In this document: positions 33,599 to 43,867 of the stretch, one piece after another | How the letters are laid out: the number at the start of each line of letters is the position of its first letter | Numbering within the stretch: position 1 is the stretch's first letter | NCBI GenBank assembly: GCA_946412015.1 | Contig: CAMKGA010000010.1 | Span: forward strand, 1-46,132 | Reading direction: 5' to 3' | DNA from: an uncultured Caryophanales bacterium | GTDB lineage: Bacteria; Bacillota_I; Bacilli_A; RF39; UBA660 | Length of the DNA: 46,132 bases | The notes under the pieces: model-generated | The model's database searches: none | What the model was told of the DNA's origin: nothing | What the model saw: the letters and a program-made list of their open reading frames with translations, nothing else | Made by a program: the position numbers and the translations under genes

Positions 33599-33670
33599 AA
33601 AATAATGAAATAGATTGGGAATCTAGTTACGAAAGCTTATAAGAATAAGAATTATAGAATAATGAATAAT

Positions 33671-33735
33671 AAATGACACTATGACACTATAAATGTGTGC
33701 ATGGCACTCACAAATAATGTGTCACTGTGTCATTT
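33671..33735. repeat. imperfect 17-bp inverted repeat
   Basis: AAATGACAC-TAT-GACAC (33671-33687) pairs with GTGTC-ACT-GTGTCATTT (33719-33735) with two mismatches. The inner 31 nt can also fold (TGTG..CACA around GCATGGC). It lies in the gap before the Gabija promoter. The 5' part of the gap (33599-33670) shows nothing else. Confidence 0.6.
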
Positions 33736-33758
33736 AATAATAAAATTAAAAGAATATG

Positions 33759-33767
33759 TGATATAAT
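33759..33767 (+). promoter_or_regulatory. extended -10 promoter of Gabija operon
   Basis: TG (33759-33760), A, TATAAT (33762-33767), giving an expected start near 33774 and a 76-nt leader. Confidence 0.7.
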
Positions 33768-33782
33768 GGTTATATAAAAAGG

Positions 33783-33832
33783 AAGCGCTAGTACAGGCTT
33801 ATATTTTATAAGTTTTTGTATTGGCGCTTTTT
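33783..33832 (+). promoter_or_regulatory. terminator-like leader hairpin before Gabija genes
   Basis: The nested stem AAGCGC (33783-33788)/GCGCTT (33824-33829), then GTACA/TGTAT, then CTTATA (33798-33803)/TATAAG (33807-33812) is followed by five T residues (33828-33832). It fills most of the leader between promoter and start codon, so transcription must pass a terminator-like structure before gajA. An attenuator is plausible. Confidence 0.6.
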
Positions 33833-33849
33833 AGTGGTAGGGAGTATTT

Positions 33850-35952
33850 ATGCAGGTAAAAAAAATTAAAATAAAAAATTATAAGAAATTAATTAATATA
33901 GATTTATGCTTAGAAAAGGATATTACTTTAATAGCAGGACCAAATAATGCTGGAAAAACTTCAATCGTAGAATTTTTAAAATTTTTATTTGGTGATACTA
34001 AAGATAAAATAGAATTAACGGAATTAAATACAAAATTATTAGATGATTGGATTGAAAAATTTTATGTCAGTTATAAGAGTGTATTAAATAAAAATTTAAA
34101 TGATTCAAAGTTGGTAGATGAATTAACAAGTTATTTTATGATCAATCCAATAAATGATATACAAATATTACCAGAAGCTTATATTGAAATAAGTTATAAT
34201 AAAAAAGATGATCAATTATCTGATATAATTAGATATTCATTTGAACTTGAAGAATATAATTCTATTTACTTTAAGTATCTATGCAAATTAAATGACAATA
34301 AATTTAAAAGCTTTTTGATAGAAAATAATAAAAAAATAATTAGTAGATATAAAAATAAAAACATCAATGATAAACAAAAAAAATTATCTATAAAAAAGAT
34401 CTTAAGTACTATTTTTCAGAATTCAATAGATGAATGCTATTATTATACAAATTCATTATATCTAGATGAATGCGAAATAAAAAAAACAGAATTTAAACAA
34501 TTATTCAATATTAGAGTTATTAACGCATTGAGAAAGTTAGATGATAATAAAAACGATTCAAATTATTCATTAAGTAAGACAATGATTAACATTGCATCAA
34601 AAACAGATGAATATAAAACTAAATTAGAAGATATTTCTGATGATTTATTTGTAAAACTTGAAGAAAATAATATTGAAAAAGCAATTTTAGCGGAAAGTAT
34701 TTCTAAATTTAACGATGAATTAAAATTAACATCAGGAAGTGAAAGTTTTGCTAAAATTGGATTATTAATAAATCCGGAAACTGAAGATATAAATAATTTA
34801 CTTAAAGATTCCACAACGGTACAATATAATGTTGAAAACTTTAATTTGGGAGAATATTCACAAGGTTTGGGATATAGTAATATGGTTTATATGCATATGA
34901 GTCAACAAAATTTTGAAAAAAATATAGATCCATCTAAAATTAATATTATGATTATTGAAGAACCCGAATCTCATATGCATCCACAAATGCAAACTTCTTT
35001 TTTTAAGAAAATATTATCTTTTTATAATAAAAATATTTCACAATGTATTATATCATCACATTCAGTGGAAATTGTTAATCATATTGAAGATATTAATAAA
35101 TTGAGAGTAATTAGGAATACAAAGAATTTGTTTGAAGCAAAATTATATGATTTGCGTGAATTTGTTAAATTAATTCAAAATAAGAAATATGATGAAATAA
35201 CAGATAAACTGGATTTCTACAATTTTTTCTTTACGATTGGATTTCCAAATTTAATATTTTCAAATAAAGCAATTTTATTTGAAGGGGACTCTGAAAGAAT
35301 ATTGTTAAAATATATTATTAGGGGTAATTATGAAAATTTATATAATGATTATATTTCATATGTTCAAGTTGGAGGAGCATATGCAAAAAATTATTTTGAT
35401 CTTTTAAAATTTTTAAATATTAAAACTCTTGTATTAACTGATATAGATTACAAAAAAGATGTAGTAAAAAAGGATGAAATATTAAAATCAACTTCATCTA
35501 ATGCCACACTCAATTATTCTTTCAGGGAATTATCTAAATTTTTATCAAATCCTGATTTTCAAATTTCAGAATATATGGAAAATAAAGAAAATGCAATTAC
35601 CATAGAAGATATTTACAAAACTAATAATTTTAGTAAACATGATTTAATAAGAATCTTTACCCAAAATTCAAATGATAAATATACTAGAACTTTGGAAGAA
35701 GCAATGTTCACTAAATTATTAAACATAAATGTATGGGATACTCTTACACAAGAAGAATGGAAAAATTTAAGAAAAAAAGAAAAATTAAAATTCTCTATTC
35801 CAAATAAGCAAAATATTACAGTTAGAGATATAATACAGAGTACATCAAATAATAAAACTGATTTTATGTATTCAGTAATTTTAATGTCTAAATATAAGGA
35901 TATGTTGCCCAACTATATTAAAGATGGATTGGAGTGGTTGCAAAATGAATAA
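33850..35952 (+). CDS. gajA: Gabija-type OLD-family nuclease GajA (large form)
   Basis: A 700-aa ABC-type ATPase fused to a TOPRIM nuclease, i.e. an OLD class 2 protein. Walker A is GPNNAGKTS (30-38). The signature is GEYSQGLGYSNM, Walker B is INIMIIEEPESHMHPQ and the H-loop is ISSHS. The TOPRIM acidic residues are E478 (LFEGDSE) and D531-x-D533 (LTDIDY). Next to a UvrD-like helicase this is the Gabija anti-phage arrangement, in which GajA nicks phage DNA. It is longer than the B. cereus protein (about 578 aa), with extra sequence between Walker A and the signature and at the C-terminus. Confidence 0.88.
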   Translation: MQVKKIKIKNYKKLINIDLCLEKDITLIAGPNNAGKTSIVEFLKFLFGDTKDKIELTELNTKLLDDWIEKFYVSYKSVLNKNLNDSKLVDELTSYFMINPINDIQILPEAYIEISYNKKDDQLSDIIRYSFELEEYNSIYFKYLCKLNDNKFKSFLIENNKKIISRYKNKNINDKQKKLSIKKILSTIFQNSIDECYYYTNSLYLDECEIKKTEFKQLFNIRVINALRKLDDNKNDSNYSLSKTMINIASKTDEYKTKLEDISDDLFVKLEENNIEKAILAESISKFNDELKLTSGSESFAKIGLLINPETEDINNLLKDSTTVQYNVENFNLGEYSQGLGYSNMVYMHMSQQNFEKNIDPSKINIMIIEEPESHMHPQMQTSFFKKILSFYNKNISQCIISSHSVEIVNHIEDINKLRVIRNTKNLFEAKLYDLREFVKLIQNKKYDEITDKLDFYNFFFTIGFPNLIFSNKAILFEGDSERILLKYIIRGNYENLYNDYISYVQVGGAYAKNYFDLLKFLNIKTLVLTDIDYKKDVVKKDEILKSTSSNATLNYSFRELSKFLSNPDFQISEYMENKENAITIEDIYKTNNFSKHDLIRIFTQNSNDKYTRTLEEAMFTKLLNINVWDTLTQEEWKNLRKKEKLKFSIPNKQNITVRDIIQSTSNNKTDFMYSVILMSKYKDMLPNYIKDGLEWLQNE

Positions 35953-37858
35953 TAGATGTTATTTAATAAATGCTCCTGCTGGGTCCGGAAAGACTACCTT
36001 TATTCATAATAAAATAATGGAGATAACATTAGCAGAACCAAAGGCAAAAATATTATGTATTACTTATACAAATAGAGCTATGAATGAACTTAATGAGAGA
36101 TTTCAATATTATTCTAATAATAATTTAGAAGTATACACAATTCATTCTTTTGTAAATAATTTTATTGATATTTATTTTAAAAATAGAAAAATTATTGATG
36201 AATATTTTATAGTATATAAAAACGAAATAAGTAGTATTATAGAAAATCAAAACGATGAAAAAAACTTAAATAAAATCTCAAAGTATAAAGAAAAATATGG
36301 AGAAAAAATAAGTTTTGAAATTGTAAAATCTAACGTATTAAAAATATATTATAATGAAACAAATTTTAATGGTTATCTATATGGTGGATTATCACATGAT
36401 GAATTAATAAGATTTTTTAATATTATTTGTAATAAATATGAAAATATTTTATTTAAACTTGCCAATATTTATGATTATATATTTATTGATGAATATCAAG
36501 ATACACCATTCTACGTTTTGGAAACGTTTTACAATGCATTAAAGTATTCTAAGTCAAAACTGTATTTGCTTGGGGATAGAATGCAACAAATATATGATAA
36601 TAACAATCAGGAATTTGATAGATTATTAAGAAATTTTAATACCAATATTAATTTAAAATACAACTATAGATCAACAGATAAAATTGTTAAAGTTTTAAAT
36701 AATATTTATGGTAATGAAAAATATATTCAAGAATCAAAAGCAAATGATAATTATATACAATCAAAAGTATTATGTATTATAACAGACGATTATGAAAGTA
36801 TAACTAACGAATTTAAAGATTATTATAAATTATTTTTATTAAATTCTGAAAAATATAACCAAATTGGTGCAAGAACATTATACTCTTCAATTTCATCTAT
36901 TAGTGACTATTCTTTCAATGGAAAATATAATGTTTCTGATGCACTAAATAGTAATATAGAAGAAAATAAAGATGCTTTATTTAAGCCAATGTATATAATT
37001 AATTATATAGTCGAAATGTATAATAAAAATAATTTTGGTGCTATTATTAGAGTCATTCAAAAGTATAATAAAATTTTTGATATTGTTAAAATTAATATTA
37101 GTGATTTTTCTCAAATTAAAAATTTAAAACTTTATATAAAAAAAATTCATGATGAATATTATAATAAGGACAATTCTATAAGTGATTTTCTTATTAAAAT
37201 TCAGTTATTAAAACAAGAATATTTTGATATCATTACTCAAAATACCGAATACGAACAGGTTATGAACACCAAAATTAGTGAGTTTGTTAATTATGTAAAT
37301 TATATAAAAAATTCTGATTGTTCTACTCAACACGGTGTAAAAGGTGAAGGCCATGATAATATTTTATTTGTTTCAGAGTCATCTACAAATCCTAATATAA
37401 ATATTTATGAATTTTATAAATTATATAGTAAAAAAAATATATGTATGGATGATTTAGATATGTTTAATAAATTATATTTAATTTCTATTAATAAGTTGGA
37501 AGAAAAAATTGGAATTAGTATAAATAAATTAAAAAAAGAAAGTTATGATAAGTTTTATTTTGAAATAAATGAAACTATACAAGAAATTTATGATTCTCTA
37601 AATTCTTATGAATATTTTGACTTAATTAAAGACAAATATAATATATATATATCTAAACCGAATGTTACATCATTAAAAGATTTTTTAAAGAAAGGATATT
37701 TCACTAGTATATTATTTGCTTATAAAATTTTTTATGTGGGATGTTCACGTGCTAGAAAAAATTTAGTTGTTTTAATAAAAAAATCTAATATTGTGGATTA
37801 TCAAAAGGAATTAATAAAAAAATTAGAAGACATCGGATTTGAAGTTGTAATAAAATAA
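35945..37858 (+). CDS. gajB: Gabija-type UvrD-like helicase GajB (large form)
   Basis: A SF1A helicase of 637 aa. Motif I is APAGSGKTT (10-18), Ia is CITYTNRAMNEL, II is FIDEYQDTP (D182-E183), III is LLGDRMQQIYD, V is TQHGVKGEGHDNILF and VI is YVGCSRARKNLVVL. Class 2 OLD genes are regularly followed by such a helicase, and GajB activates the system upon sensing DNA ends or nucleotides. Its ATG overlaps the gajA stop by 8 nt, implying coupled translation. It is larger than the reference GajB (about 494 aa). Confidence 0.88.
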   Translation: MNNRCYLINAPAGSGKTTFIHNKIMEITLAEPKAKILCITYTNRAMNELNERFQYYSNNNLEVYTIHSFVNNFIDIYFKNRKIIDEYFIVYKNEISSIIENQNDEKNLNKISKYKEKYGEKISFEIVKSNVLKIYYNETNFNGYLYGGLSHDELIRFFNIICNKYENILFKLANIYDYIFIDEYQDTPFYVLETFYNALKYSKSKLYLLGDRMQQIYDNNNQEFDRLLRNFNTNINLKYNYRSTDKIVKVLNNIYGNEKYIQESKANDNYIQSKVLCIITDDYESITNEFKDYYKLFLLNSEKYNQIGARTLYSSISSISDYSFNGKYNVSDALNSNIEENKDALFKPMYIINYIVEMYNKNNFGAIIRVIQKYNKIFDIVKINISDFSQIKNLKLYIKKIHDEYYNKDNSISDFLIKIQLLKQEYFDIITQNTEYEQVMNTKISEFVNYVNYIKNSDCSTQHGVKGEGHDNILFVSESSTNPNINIYEFYKLYSKKNICMDDLDMFNKLYLISINKLEEKIGISINKLKKESYDKFYFEINETIQEIYDSLNSYEYFDLIKDKYNIYISKPNVTSLKDFLKKGYFTSILFAYKIFYVGCSRARKNLVVLIKKSNIVDYQKELIKKLEDIGFEVVIK

Positions 37859-37875
37859 TTTATTATTAATTTTCC

Positions 37876-37898
37876 TAGATACCAAATCTAGATACTAA
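37876..37898 (+). repeat. arm-type direct repeats of element 1, right end
   Basis: TAGATACCAA (37876-37885) and TAGATACTAA (37889-37898), same orientation as the three copies at 23544-23586. Together they frame element 1. Confidence 0.6.
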
Positions 37899-37950
37899 TT
37901 GTAAAAAATGAAGTTATTTTAATAAACTTTAGTAAATTTAAGAAAATAAA

Positions 37951-37973
37951 AAAGCCTTATTTTATAAGACTTT
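37951..37973. repeat. hairpin in P arm of element 1
   Basis: AAAG-C-CTTAT (37951-37960) pairs with ATAAG-A-CTTT (37964-37973) around TTT with one mismatch. It may also stop transcription from gajB. A related sequence is at the same distance from the last att core (about 45983-46006), showing that the two elements share this arm. Confidence 0.5.
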
Positions 37974-37987
37974 GGTCTATTATTAAA

Positions 37988-38004
37988 TTGTTACGAACTG
38001 GTAT
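37988..38004 (+). promoter_or_regulatory. 17-bp motif beside attM core
   Basis: TTGTTACGAACTGGTAT, identical to the int-promoter copy (24761-24777, opposite strand). It ends 8 nt before the CCCCCTGAAG core. Confidence 0.6.
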
Positions 38005-38012
38005 TTAGATTT

Positions 38013-38044
38013 CCCCCTGAAGGAGCCGCAAGGCTCCACTTTTT
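38013..38044 (+). other. attM: junction of elements 1 and 2
   Basis: CCCCCTGAAG (38013-38022) followed by the terminator stem GGAGCC (38022-38027)/GGCTCC (38032-38037) with a GCAA loop, then ACTTTTTGT. The left flank is related to the flank of the last att site, the right flank to that of attL (TTTTTGTTT..TATAAGG), as expected for a tandem junction. Confidence 0.65.
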
Positions 38045-38080
38045 GTTTGTTTATAAGGTTTCATAGCCTTTTTATTTTGT

Positions 38081-38287: not shown

Positions 38288-41200
38288 ATGGGCGACGAAC
38301 AAAAAGAATATAATTGTCCTGAATGTGGAGAAGCAATTCAGGTAGATTCTCCTGTTTGTGAAAATTGTGGTACTGAACATGAATGGAGTATTGATGAAAG
38401 TGAAGAACTTGAAAAAATAAAGGAAAGTTTAATAAAAGCTGGTAAAAAAAATGGTTTAATTACATATGAACAGTTAGCTTCATTACTTAAAGGCCATGAT
38501 ATTGATGAAGATGGTTTAGATAGTTTGTATAATACACTTAATGAAAATGATATACTTATAATATCTAAAGAAGAAGAGATTCAAGTTAAAGAAGATTATT
38601 CAAAAAGTATTGAAGATAACAAAAAGAAAAGTAACGAAAATATTAAAGAAGTAAGTAAGAATTCAAATAAATTTGATAATGTGAAGATTATTTCACTATA
38701 TAAATTTATTTCTGAATTTTGTAAAGTTAAAAATAAAATTATTACAAATGATAAAAGTTATTTGTGGACATTTTCAATTGATAATATTCCAGAAGATGAA
38801 GATAATATAAGCCTTTTATATAGTGACAAAAATGATTCAGAAGATGAAAATGAAGAATTATATGATGAACCTAATTATTTGTTAAAAGTTCATAAACCTG
38901 AATTTCAAAAATGTCCTGAACCTCCATTAGATTTAAAAAGATGGTTATTAGATAATTGGAATTATCATAAAAACGATGCTAAAATTAGAGAAAAAATAGA
39001 GCGTATCAATAGTAAGACTAATGAAACTGAAACAGAATTATTTGATGATGATAGTAATAGAAGAAAGCTATTAGAAGATTGGTTGAGAAAAAGAAAAATT
39101 TGGGTTGAACAACAACTTTTAATTGAAAAAACCAGAGATTTTTTTACCGAATTATATATGAAATATATTGATTTGCAAAGAGAATCCGAAACAACTGAAA
39201 TGATAATTGCAAATGGATATATAAAAGATAGTAATAATAGAGAAATCTATCATCCTATTCTTACAAAAAGATTAATCATGAATTTTGATGCTGCTGAAAA
39301 TACATTATATATTTTGAACACTAATGCAAAATCTGAATTATATACTGAATTATTTCAAGTAATGGAAGATATAAATGTAGAATCATTATCAACTTTAAAT
39401 TCAGATTTAATGCAACATGATTATCATCCAATGGATAGAAATGATACGAAAGAGTTTTTAAAAGTGTTGGTTCATAAACTTTCTGCAAATAGTAAGTTTG
39501 TTGAAAATGAAGACGATGAGGATGAAAATAATAATAGAATACTAATGTATTTTAAACCTTGTATAATTATTAGAAAAAGATTAGATGGAACAATAAAAGC
39601 AATAGAACAGATTATTAAGAATATAGAAGAAACAGGGTTTATACCTGAACATTTATTAGACATAATTAATAATCGAGAGTTAGATAAACCAGAAGAAATT
39701 GATGAAAGTGTTGAAGAATTACTTGCTAAAGCAGGTGGGGAAAGTATAGATATTCTATTAACTAAGGAAGCAAACAAAGAGCAATTGGAGATAGCAAAGA
39801 GAATAGAAATGTATAATGGTGTTTTGGTTCAAGGTCCTCCTGGAACAGGTAAAACTCATACTATAGCAAATTTAATTGGTCATTTTTTAGCAAAAGGTAA
39901 AAGTATTTTAGTTACAAGTTATACTAAAAAAGCTTTAACTGTATTAAAGGATAAATTGCCAAAAGGTATGCAAAGTCTATGCGTAAGTATTTTGGATGAA
40001 TCAAATGAGGACATGGAAAATTCTATAGATGGAATTACTGAATATATGTCTAAAATTACTTCATTTGAATTAAAAAAACAAATAGATAAGTTAAAAGAAG
40101 AAAGATTAAAGATTATAGATGAATTATCCAAGACAAGAAAAAAAATATATAATGCTTTAAACAATGAATATAAAAGTATTGTATTAAATGGTGAAGAAAT
40201 ATCTCCTTCAGATGCAGCTAAATATATAGCACATAATAAAGGAAAACTAGACTATATAAAAGGAAATATAAAATTATATTCACCGTTACCTCTTTCTGTA
40301 GAAGAAATAAATTATTTATATTCTACTAATTCTAAAATTACTGGTGACGAAGAAAAGGAATTAAATTATCAACTCCCAGATCCAAGTAATCTAATTACCC
40401 CCAGTGAATTAAAAAATATACTTGATGAAAATGAAAAATTAGAAAATTCAATTTTTGAGATAGCAAAAAATAATAAGTGGAAATTAAATTTAGATGCTGA
40501 TTTGTTTTTTGATACGGAGTTCGGTAAGTTTTATATAAATAATCTTGATGAAAATTCTGTTAATGATTTAAAAAAATATATTTCAAATTTTGAAAATAAT
40601 GAAGAATGGTCTAGAAATGTATGCTGCGACGGCAAAATAGGAGGAGCGTATAAAAAAAGATGGACAACACTTATTCAAAAAATTCAGAATACTACTAAAA
40701 TTAGTGAGAATATATTAGATAATTATTTTGGAAAAACAATTACTTATGATTTAGATATTTTAAAAAATAATAAAGATTCAGTTATAAAACTTAAAAATAT
40801 CTTATCAAAAAAAAATAAGATTAGTAAATTTGATTTATTATTAAATAATAATTTAAATAGGATTGTTAGTTTAGATATTGTAAATGGAAAACCATTAAAG
40901 ACATCTGACGATTGTGAGTTTGTATTACAAAGTATGGAATTACAAGATGCTAGAAAAGATTTGTCACTTGTTTGGGATGAATTGATGGGTTCAAGTGGAA
41001 TGTCTAAGTTTAAAGATTTAGATTTAAATGAACCAGAGAGAATTGCAGAAAAGTATATAAATAGTATAAATGATTATCTAAATTGGTATTCAAAAGATTA
41101 TAGTAAATTGATAAAGTTATTACAAAATGCCAATATACCAGAACAAATTGTATTAAAAATTAATGATTTTGATAAAGATATTGATCAAATAAATAAAATA

Positions 41201-43867
41201 TTTGATTCAATCAAAAATACATTGCCAAGTATAATTGATATTTGCTTAAACAAATTAAAAATTAATAGTAATGTAAATGAAGTAGAAAAGACAATTAATA
41301 TTTTAGAAGATAATTCGCTAATTAATTCTACACTATGCATTAACATGAAGAATGCATTAATTACCAATAATTATGAGCAGTATTTGAGTGAATTTAAAGA
41401 ATTAAATGAAATTTACAATAAATATGAATCATTAAATAAGAGAAATGAATTATTAGATAAAATTGAGGAAGTTGCACCAGTATGGGCATATGAAATTAAA
41501 AATAGAATTGGTATTCATGGTGAGAATAGTTGTCCAAAAGACATAAGTGAAGCTTGGAAATATAGACAATATGAATTAATTCTTGATGGTTTCATGACAA
41601 ATTCTGTTGAAAACTTACAAAAAAGAAGTCAAAAACTAAGTTCTGATTATCGAAAAATTACTGAGGAATACGCAACTAAATGTGCTTGGTTTGAATTAGC
41701 ATCTAGAACTGAATGTAATCTTGGAATGAAAAAAGCTTTAAAAGGTTGGGAATTAACTGTTAAGAAGATAGGAAAAGGTACAGGTAAAAATGCAGCTAAG
41801 TATAAAGCTCAAGCAAGAGATTTAATGGTTGAATGTCAAAATGCAGTTCCATGTTGGATTATGCCTATTAATAAGGCAATTGAGTCTCTAAAGCCAGGAG
41901 AAAACGAGTTTGATGTTATTATAATAGACGAAGCAAGTCAATCCGATATTTCTTCACTTGCTATTTCTTATTTTGGTAAAAAAATGATAGTTGTAGGAGA
42001 TGATAAACAAGTTAGCCCAATGGCAGTAGGTGCTGAGATAGATAAAATTAATGCATTAGAACAAATGTATATTAAAGGGAAAATTCCTAATTCTCATTTA
42101 TATAGTTCAAAAACATCTTTATATGATATAGCGGCTACTACATTCCAACCTTTAATGTTAAGAGAACATTTTAGATGTGTTCCTGAGATAATTGGATTTA
42201 GTAATATGTTATCATATGATTTCAAAATAAAGCCATTAAGAGATTCGGCAAGTAGTAATTTATTACCAGCAGTAATAAATTATAGAGTTGATGGCAAGAG
42301 AGTAGGAAAAACTAATAAAATAGAAGCTGAAACTATAGTTTCGCAAATTAAGGCTTGTATAGAATTAGAAGAATATGAGGGAAAGACTTTTGGAGTAATA
42401 TCACTATTAGGTGATGAGCAGGCAAAACTAATTCAATCCCTTATATTTAAATATATTGATCCAAGAGATATTGAAAGAAGAAAAATACTTGTCGGAAATG
42501 CATCAAATTTTCAAGGTGATGAAAGAGATGTTATTTTCTTATCTATGGTTGATAGTGGTAATGAAGATGGTGGACCTTTGGCTTTTTCTGGAGTAGGTGT
42601 TGAAGAGGCTACTAAAAAAAGATATAATGTTGCTGCTAGTAGAGCAAGGGATCAATTGTGGGTTATTAATTCACTAGATCCTGCTAGTGATTTAAAACCT
42701 GGTGATATGAGAAAAAAACTATTAGATTATGCAACTAATCCCAAAGCATTTGCAATAAAAGAGGAAGAAATTAAGAAAAAAGCTGATTCAGTATTTGAAG
42801 TACAAGTTGCTAATAAATTAGTTTCAGAAGGATATCATATTACTCAACAGTATCCTGTTGGGGCTTATAGATTGGATATTGTAGTTTTAAGTGGAAATAA
42901 TAAAGTTGTTATTGAATGCGATGGTGAAAGATATCATAGTGGTGAAGAAAAAGTACGTGAAGATATGCAGAGACAGGCTATTCTTGAAAGAATTGGTTGG
43001 AAGTTTATTAGAATAAGAGGTAGTCAGTTCTTTAAAGATTCAGATAGCGAAATGTCAAAAGTGATAAATCAATTAAATGATATGAAAATATATCCAGAAG
43101 ATGAAAATAATCTTGAAAACGTAAGAACAAGTGAGTTATTAGAAAAAGTTAAATTAGAATCAAGCAAACATCTTGAAAATATACAACAGGGAAAAGAAAT
43201 AGAAATAGATTATCAAGACATACAGTTTGCATTAGATTCAAAAAGAAAAAAAAGTATTAATACTTCCCTTAATACAGGAGATGTAATATGGGGACCTAGT
43301 CAATTTAGATACATGGTATTGTATTGTGAGGGCGTTAATAGGAAAGAAATATCTAATTATTTTAACGTTGCATATGACACTGTTAAAAAATCGCTACAGG
43401 TTGTAGCTAAGAATTATAATGCTTTATCAGCAGATGAATGTATTAATGAATTCAAAAAAGAGTATAAACAAAGTAAGAATTATCAAGATATTATAACTAA
43501 GTATTATTCTGATAATAAAAAGAATTTAAATAAAGTTGGTAATATATCGTTTGAAAATAATATAGAAACAAGTCTAAGAAGTTTTGAAAAAAATACAGAA
43601 AAGAAGAATATTATTAAACCTGAAATAAATAAACAAATGAATCATAAAATGAAATCAAGTGATGAGTTTGTTGATGAACTTAATAAAAATAATATAAACT
43701 TTATTGACAATAGAGAAAAATCAGATATAATATGGATATTATATGAAGAAAGAATACAACAATTAGTGGTAGATTTAATAACTAAATATAATTTTAAATT
43801 TTCTTTTGAAAGAAGAGGATCAATTGTTACTAATAATGTTTCGGCATGGAGAGTAATGTGTAAATAG
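38288..43867 (+). CDS. 1859-aa zinc-ribbon / SF1 helicase / PD-(D/E)XK nuclease protein
   Basis: A probable stand-alone defence protein. Visible order: zinc ribbon (C10, C13, C24, C27); a domain at about 40-95 resembling sigma-70 region 1.1 (KAGKKNGLITYEQLASLL..); charged linker; UPF1/Dna2-like helicase with Walker A GPPGTGKT (516-523), a long insert of nearly 700 aa, DEAS box D1214, GDDKQVSP, REHFRC, NFQGDERDVI and VAASRARDQL. Next comes a Vsr/MTES_1575-type nuclease with D1530 and E1543-C-D1545 (IECDGERYHSG); a helix-turn-helix near 1675-1705; and a small C-terminal domain (FIDNREKSDIIWILYEER..). The helicase-nuclease core resembles the DUF4011-helicase-Vsr (Hhe) defence design; the ends look new to me. 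It is followed by ydbC. Confidence 0.85.
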   Translation: MGDEQKEYNCPECGEAIQVDSPVCENCGTEHEWSIDESEELEKIKESLIKAGKKNGLITYEQLASLLKGHDIDEDGLDSLYNTLNENDILIISKEEEIQVKEDYSKSIEDNKKKSNENIKEVSKNSNKFDNVKIISLYKFISEFCKVKNKIITNDKSYLWTFSIDNIPEDEDNISLLYSDKNDSEDENEELYDEPNYLLKVHKPEFQKCPEPPLDLKRWLLDNWNYHKNDAKIREKIERINSKTNETETELFDDDSNRRKLLEDWLRKRKIWVEQQLLIEKTRDFFTELYMKYIDLQRESETTEMIIANGYIKDSNNREIYHPILTKRLIMNFDAAENTLYILNTNAKSELYTELFQVMEDINVESLSTLNSDLMQHDYHPMDRNDTKEFLKVLVHKLSANSKFVENEDDEDENNNRILMYFKPCIIIRKRLDGTIKAIEQIIKNIEETGFIPEHLLDIINNRELDKPEEIDESVEELLAKAGGESIDILLTKEANKEQLEIAKRIEMYNGVLVQGPPGTGKTHTIANLIGHFLAKGKSILVTSYTKKALTVLKDKLPKGMQSLCVSILDESNEDMENSIDGITEYMSKITSFELKKQIDKLKEERLKIIDELSKTRKKIYNALNNEYKSIVLNGEEISPSDAAKYIAHNKGKLDYIKGNIKLYSPLPLSVEEINYLYSTNSKITGDEEKELNYQLPDPSNLITPSELKNILDENEKLENSIFEIAKNNKWKLNLDADLFFDTEFGKFYINNLDENSVNDLKKYISNFENNEEWSRNVCCDGKIGGAYKKRWTTLIQKIQNTTKISENILDNYFGKTITYDLDILKNNKDSVIKLKNILSKKNKISKFDLLLNNNLNRIVSLDIVNGKPLKTSDDCEFVLQSMELQDARKDLSLVWDELMGSSGMSKFKDLDLNEPERIAEKYINSINDYLNWYSKDYSKLIKLLQNANIPEQIVLKINDFDKDIDQINKIFDSIKNTLPSIIDICLNKLKINSNVNEVEKTINILEDNSLINSTLCINMKNALITNNYEQYLSEFKELNEIYNKYESLNKRNELLDKIEEVAPVWAYEIKNRIGIHGENSCPKDISEAWKYRQYELILDGFMTNSVENLQKRSQKLSSDYRKITEEYATKCAWFELASRTECNLGMKKALKGWELTVKKIGKGTGKNAAKYKAQARDLMVECQNAVPCWIMPINKAIESLKPGENEFDVIIIDEASQSDISSLAISYFGKKMIVVGDDKQVSPMAVGAEIDKINALEQMYIKGKIPNSHLYSSKTSLYDIAATTFQPLMLREHFRCVPEIIGFSNMLSYDFKIKPLRDSASSNLLPAVINYRVDGKRVGKTNKIEAETIVSQIKACIELEEYEGKTFGVISLLGDEQAKLIQSLIFKYIDPRDIERRKILVGNASNFQGDERDVIFLSMVDSGNEDGGPLAFSGVGVEEATKKRYNVAASRARDQLWVINSLDPASDLKPGDMRKKLLDYATNPKAFAIKEEEIKKKADSVFEVQVANKLVSEGYHITQQYPVGAYRLDIVVLSGNNKVVIECDGERYHSGEEKVREDMQRQAILERIGWKFIRIRGSQFFKDSDSEMSKVINQLNDMKIYPEDENNLENVRTSELLEKVKLESSKHLENIQQGKEIEIDYQDIQFALDSKRKKSINTSLNTGDVIWGPSQFRYMVLYCEGVNRKEISNYFNVAYDTVKKSLQVVAKNYNALSADECINEFKKEYKQSKNYQDIITKYYSDNKKNLNKVGNISFENNIETSLRSFEKNTEKKNIIKPEINKQMNHKMKSSDEFVDELNKNNINFIDNREKSDIIWILYEERIQQLVVDLITKYNFKFSFERRGSIVTNNVSAWRVMCK

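Follow-up and report, generated by a model that had tools for sequence, protein, structure and literature searches.

A terminator-like RNA hairpin stands between the promoter and the first gene of a Gabija operon in an uncultured Caryophanales bacterium, and copies of it precede many unrelated defence genes in the same bacterial family. On balance, we consider this leader to be probably a promoter-proximal attenuator common to a family-wide defence regulon, which would be relieved by a trans-acting factor recognising its core. Comparison of the copies supports an RNA hairpin with a terminator-like foot and a conserved core, recurring close to the promoter before many defence families.

The window, i.e. 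the whole stretch of DNA analysed, comprises 46,132 nucleotides. The following features are referred to below:

33673-33733, no strand given: left cassette block, made of paired TGACAC units arranged as an inverted repeat, present in 17 of 109 copies (set A)
33759-33767, plus strand: extended -10 box TGATATAAT, from sequence
33783-33829, plus strand: leader hairpin formed by two helices with a U-rich internal loop; core GCTAGTACAGG / TTTTTGTATTGGC
33828-33832, plus strand: T-run (five T) of the terminator-like hairpin, from sequence
33839-33844, plus strand: gajA ribosome binding site, Shine-Dalgarno-like AGGGAG, from sequence
33850-35952, plus strand: gajA (AAA/OLD-TOPRIM), first cargo gene (PADLOC PDLC00082, 3.3e-182)
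35924-37858, plus strand: gajB (UvrD-like helicase), second cargo gene (PADLOC PDLC00109, 3e-191)
37874-38022, plus strand: right cassette block, conserved directly 3′ of the last cargo gene in 13 loci
38022-38045, plus strand: ordinary 3′ terminator, whose structure and T-run are kept in sister cassettes while its sequence is free

The original prediction had described a nested 50-nt hairpin with five T residues, placed behind a promoter and ahead of the gajA start codon, and such a structure was found at 33783-33832. The promoter is marked by the extended -10 box, its -35 element being weak by eye, and the position of the box predicts a transcription start near 33774. Approximately 15 nt separate the box from the hairpin and 17 nt the hairpin from the gajA ATG at 33850. 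An outer helix (33783-33796 with 33816-33829) and an inner helix (33798-33802 with 33808-33812) are stacked on each other. The minimum free energy was -25.9 kcal/mol compared with -12.5 ± 2.4 in 200 dinucleotide shuffles, none of which folded as well (z -5.67), and the minus strand of the hairpin gave a folding energy of -11.5. With its stable hairpin and U-run the leader scored d = +14.7 as an intrinsic terminator by the formula of d'Aubenton-Carafa. A simple terminator scan, which accepts only a continuous stem closed by a loop of 3-8, did not list the hairpin, presumably because the internal U-rich loop interrupts the stem.

The adjacent gajA and gajB genes identify the operon as Gabija. 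Downstream of it are a large helicase-nuclease, in which MTES_1575 and AAA domains were recognised, and an ApeA-like protein, whose ApeA score is slightly under the Pfam cut-off; the surroundings of the operon therefore resemble a defence island. The adjoining helicase of 1859 aa (38288-43867), which carries the MTES_1575 nuclease and is PDC-S37/Hhe-like in PADLOC, has a promoter-like sequence of its own, and no leader hairpin was seen there.

The source genome contains a second copy of the leader on contig 4, 88% identical over 62 bases and placed directly between a gene read as a putative DUF262/HNH gene and an AAA gene. The sequence of its apical stem differs and pairing is retained. Among genomes of the source bacterial family, BLAST with a 70-base query detected the leader in 48 of 291 and a covariance model in 76 of 386. 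An order-level draw gave 48 of 288 genomes, all listed matches belonging to the source family, and a class-level draw gave 7 of 296, again all from this family, whose share of the 296 is not given. When named genome contigs were scanned with a pattern, 63 stretches were returned, 61 of them judged by context to be real copies; nearly all come from assemblies of uncultured bacteria that bear the label Bacilli, Bacillales, Tenericutes or Erysipelotrichaceae, and the gut is the source of many.

The working set of 109 copies was obtained from 139 by removal of near-identical contexts; it retains a few duplicates (e.g. L048 and L073) and some doubtful members (the second copy of L171, L183 and L190). 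Rows were dropped where the pattern matched within unrelated sequence (L084, L097) or the core motif was missing (L047, L051), and L049 was omitted from alignment A2. The 40 stretches fetched represent part of the places listed by the covariance-model search of the family. Four leader copies on one contig (L157/L158, G295 contig 8) form an array of leader units, in which two are separated by 88 nt and have a promoter-like sequence between them; at L158/L071 two copies are arranged in tandem, and the first is followed by a promoter-like sequence.

In Rfam, the leader of the window had no match at the gathering score and the AbiF RNA (RF03085) was absent from 33640-33860 to E 10; nine other leader loci gave one tRNA and nothing else. 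With regard to phage or plasmid origin, a 150-base query found no match among either the 50,697 phage records or the 72,556 plasmid records, and of two patterns run on viral contigs one returned ten unrelated stretches and the other none. GajA relatives are rare in the source family (2 of 193), so that gain or loss of the leader cannot be traced on GajA.

Across 98 distinct rows, in an alignment fitted to the model, 96.9% of the pair cells were occupied by standard pairs. Changes on both sides occurred in 12 of 19 pairs compared with 4.4 ± 1.2 in shuffles (0 of 500), and this covariation signal was lost when the partner was slid by one to three columns. A sequence-only MAFFT alignment gave 97.4% pairing and five double-changed pairs compared with 1.6 ± 0.9. 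RNAalifold returned only three pairs on the first alignment, probably because gaps in the apical part misaligned the arms, and a structure given by hand on alignment A3 was used in place of its fold. The plus strand was the more stable one in all 109 copies (mean -18.5 versus -6.7 kcal/mol) because several pairs are G-U, which are impossible on the other strand; this favours RNA and speaks against a DNA operator. A T-run of at least five is present in 101 of the 109 copies. The terminator score was above zero in 101 of 109 leaders; the same was true of one of the 108 coding stretches and two of the 109 dinucleotide shuffles used as controls. The idea that a terminator-like leader could hold the operon down is well supported, recurrence and covariation making the case much stronger than one locus could, and we regard it as very likely that the leader would terminate transcription in vivo.

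The core (left arm approximately GCUAGUACAG, right arm UUUUGUAUUG) is conserved in sequence including its G-U wobbles. The 54 copies from the pattern scan contain it by construction and the model search is biased towards its own consensus; GCTAGTACAG was present in 13 of 13 copies found by BLAST, and among 41 model-found copies it was exact in 25, with AGTA[CT]A in 34. In 43 model-found rows G11 and T12 were invariant and C8, A13 and A15 were each kept in 42, while stem position 6 was C in 19 and G in 14 rows, with compensation by its partner. At the wobble formed by columns 16-48 of alignment A6, 95 of 98 rows had G-U and none had G-C. That something besides the polymerase may read the leader hairpin is best indicated by the contrast between this fixed core and the 3′ terminators of the same cassettes, which retain shape and T-run and are free in sequence.

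According to the attenuator reading, transcription would start a few nucleotides 5′ of the hairpin and most polymerases would by default halt at the T-run, giving an RNA of ~60 nt and keeping the costly defence genes at low expression. A trans-acting factor, either a protein or a modified polymerase, would bind the core and allow the polymerase to read through. Besides termination in vivo, this supposes a specific factor and infection or stress as the signal. The chances that a dedicated recogniser exists appear to us about evenly balanced, and a link of relief to infection is rather doubtful. Relief by antitermination, as proposed originally, is plausible insofar as the core and its wobbles point to a recogniser acting in trans; this evidence is indirect, and there is no room for an antiterminator in cis.

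The main rival is a fixed brake, in which an intrinsic terminator would let through the same share of polymerases at all times and hold toxic defence genes at a low level, with neither signal nor dedicated factor. This is the simplest reading and agrees with the terminator scores, with the outcome of the search for NusG paralogues described below, which produced no factor, and with the comparable leader known for one system, AbiF (PMC12373285). It leaves unexplained that the core and its G-U wobbles are near-constant while the stem base and the apical stem vary, as well as the free sequence of the 3′ terminators. We consider it unlikely.

The position of the hairpin was compared with those of promoter and start codon. 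Of the 64 copies more than 50 nt from the upstream gene, all but three (61) are preceded by a -10-like hexamer at a distance of up to 45 nt, mostly 7-15 nt before the start of the model. A control region 150 nt further up contained such a hexamer in 56 of 107 cases, and the position of the hexamer is therefore more telling than its mere presence. For the 45 of 109 copies that lie within 50 nt of the upstream gene's stop, inside an operon, the promoter argument is weaker. The predicted transcript begins ~9 nt 5′ of the hairpin, which leaves no space for an aptamer, a leader peptide or a competing antiterminator. A riboswitch or cis-acting attenuator with an alternative fold was accordingly not recognised in the leader copies, whose upstream sequence moreover varies.

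Downstream, an ORF of at least 100 aa starts 5-25 nt 3′ of the leader in 87 of the 99 copies that have such an ORF. At some loci the gene is further away, for example 131 nt for SoFic in L164. At the three intact Cas9 loci (L191, L166 and L185) the hairpin lies ~25-35 nt behind a TATAAT-like box and ~130-370 nt ahead of the Cas9 start, indicating that the promoter and not the ribosome site is the fixed point. The short distance to most ORFs and the Shine-Dalgarno-like sequence straight after the leader would also suit a translational operator, or a 5′ hairpin stabilising the mRNA before a strong ribosome site, with the T-run being incidental. We judge this improbable in view of the Cas9 loci, where the hairpin stays by the promoter, and of the T-run, which is kept in nearly all copies.

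In two Cas9 loci read closely, a tracrRNA-like antisense stretch lies between leader and cas9, and the same stretch is found 3′ of the hairpin in L195; the conserved interval in L166, L191 and L195 reads as tracrRNA on the opposite strand, so that the leader transcript would run antisense through it. A link of the leader to tracrRNA or CRISPR repeats, considered on account of its presence at Cas9 loci, was rejected, since the tracrRNA-like stretch is antisense and, by eye, of different sequence. A search of 203 genomes gave 19 Cas9-like matches. Among these, L265, which is the L185 locus, matched the leader strongly, and weak leader matches were obtained at L264, L267 and L268 (25-28 bits) and at L271 and L276 (22-25 bits). 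No leader was seen upstream of the Cas9-like loci L259-L262 and L266.

The first genes behind the leader fall into 52 clusters by BLAST linkage, 42 of which have an ORF of at least 100 aa and are unrelated to each other. Those named by PADLOC or Pfam include Gabija GajA, Cas9, Tmn, AbiO/Nhi, the PD-T4-6 kinase, PDC-S19 DUF3644, PDC-S06 AAA_13, PifA/KAP, a GajB-like helicase, Avs4, DUF4297, Shedu SduA and SoFic. Pfam further named Schlafen AlbA_2, DUF6119, an ADP-ribosyltransferase, HNH and a DEAD helicase, with weak matches to Mrr (slightly under the cut-off) and to a STAND NTPase (sub-threshold). At E <= 1e-20, PADLOC matched 13 of 41 cluster representatives and none of 20 control genes, i.e. 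10 upstream neighbours and 10 window genes (Fisher one-sided p = 0.003). At 1e-5 the numbers were 16 of 41 and 4 of 20 (p = 0.11), a weaker contrast because generic helicases and proteases match PADLOC weakly; 25 of 41 representatives had no match at this threshold.

Cargo without a defence match comprises G5-domain proteins (four copies), AMP-binding enzymes (two) and, in one further copy, a protein labelled PfkB-like by sequence reading. The small G5-domain protein follows the leader in L174, L179, L186 and L193, the last of which was scanned without a PADLOC match; it would be either a target with no role in defence or a defence protein not recognised so far.

A small RNA gene would share the layout of promoter, hairpin and T-run. 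In that case the gene product would be the terminated RNA of ~60 nt, which might resemble an antitoxin or act on other copies, and expression of the defence gene would depend on read-through. Both the tandem copies at L158/L071, with their promoter-like sequence after the first, and the AbiF RNA RCd22, which acts in cis and in trans (PMC12373285), are in line with this possibility. The neighbouring proteins are too diverse for one common RNA antitoxin, and we regard it as very improbable. In ToxIN systems a terminator precedes the toxin gene, and ToxI consists of tandem repeats that are specific for the cognate toxin. No direct repeat families resembling ToxI were found in 33600-33860, where tandem rows are either short and AT-rich or consist of the ATGACACT units of the left block, and the leader thus does not classify as type III toxin-antitoxin. 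The likeness to ToxIN is a structured RNA before a defence gene, ToxI lying 5′ of ToxN (PMC8040213).

In 17 copies, the window locus included, the left block precedes the promoter of the leader and begins shortly after the stops of unrelated upstream genes. The right block, which ends in CCCCCTGAAG and a variable terminator, was present in 35 of 291 genomes, and at several fetched loci it adjoins other genes and the left block is missing. In two empty forms (L234:4007-4225 and L235:4405-4630) the blocks are adjacent with few bases between them, near gene ends, and cargo, promoter and leader are missing. Promoter, leader and defence genes therefore fill a slot between fixed ends. The empty forms suggest that the window locus and the 16 other copies may be a swappable cassette or mobile insertion unit. 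Compared with integrons, fixed end blocks and empty forms were found and no integrase was identified.

Two further backbones have different fixed neighbours. One is a Fic gene with 0.6-2.3 kb of downstream DNA that is 91-94% identical; the same Fic-family gene lies directly before the leader in L055, L063, L066, L068, L091, L094, L098 and L110, and the defence gene 3′ of the leader differs in most of these eight loci. The other is a DUF262-like gene, downstream of which a large serine recombinase is encoded. Such a recombinase (TnpX/TP901-1-like) lies at L009:9538-11157, downstream of the second leader copy, and the DNA 3′ of the cargo in L009 is common to other loci with different cargo.

Since the leader is common to several backbones, it is not just a piece of one mobile element. 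A hairpin conserved as a recombination site or as part of a mobile backbone would account for the empty forms and for the finding that, in each of three backbones, one upstream sequence is followed by differing cargo. Set A, however, makes up no more than 17 of the 109 copies, the hairpin is not part of the conserved ends of the cassette, and it is strand-specific through its G-U pairs, covaries and keeps a fixed place relative to promoter or start codon. Such a DNA-level origin of the conservation is highly improbable.

At BglG/LicT RAT sites and with LoaP, a leader terminator is relieved in trans by an RNA-binding protein. By eye, the present leader differs from the former in having no overlapping RAT-like alternative hairpin. 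Recruitment of a NusG paralogue of the LoaP/RfaH type by the hairpin, suggested by the association of LoaP with a leader RNA hairpin, is scarcely credible and a LoaP-dependent leader was rejected, because a survey of 24 genomes, of which 12 had been selected for having the leader and 12 for lacking it, revealed exactly one NusG in 22, none in two and no second, LoaP-type NusG in any, the leader-bearing ones included. The terms LoaP and leader RNA hairpin do occur together in the record of PMC12691694.

Terminator leaders at single defence genes and a coordinated defence regulon in Pseudomonas are already known. In Clostridioides difficile, a terminator ahead of abiF halts most of the transcription that starts at the AbiF promoter (PMC12373285). 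Its leader RCd22 (abiF motif, RF03085) is likewise a promoter-proximal RNA with a Rho-independent terminator just 5′ of the defence gene, and differs in serving one protein family with two abiF motifs in about 130 nt. The present leader, in contrast, is one hairpin without an Rfam match and has 42 unrelated protein clusters behind it. The Gac/Rsm pathway of Pseudomonas controls many unrelated defence factors (PMC11888443) and is alike in placing one pathway over them. It belongs to another phylum, whereas in the present case a terminator-like hairpin lies at each target and the controller is postulated. In the literature covered, which takes in few subscription journals and hardly any preprints, no description was found of a single conserved leader preceding many defence families unrelated to each other.

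These data address the question of how bacteria silence many costly or self-toxic defence systems and then wake them together. It is conceivable, and we put it forward tentatively, that one trans-acting antiterminator wakes a family-wide regulon of dozens of unrelated and exchangeable defence systems, CRISPR-Cas9 among them, which would each have gained this leader and would stay silent until infection or stress, and that captured cassettes would be wired into this regulon on arrival. The common leader makes such co-control testable, with one hairpin, one probable recogniser and many immune systems. It also provides a search handle, as a gene behind the leader is a candidate defence gene.
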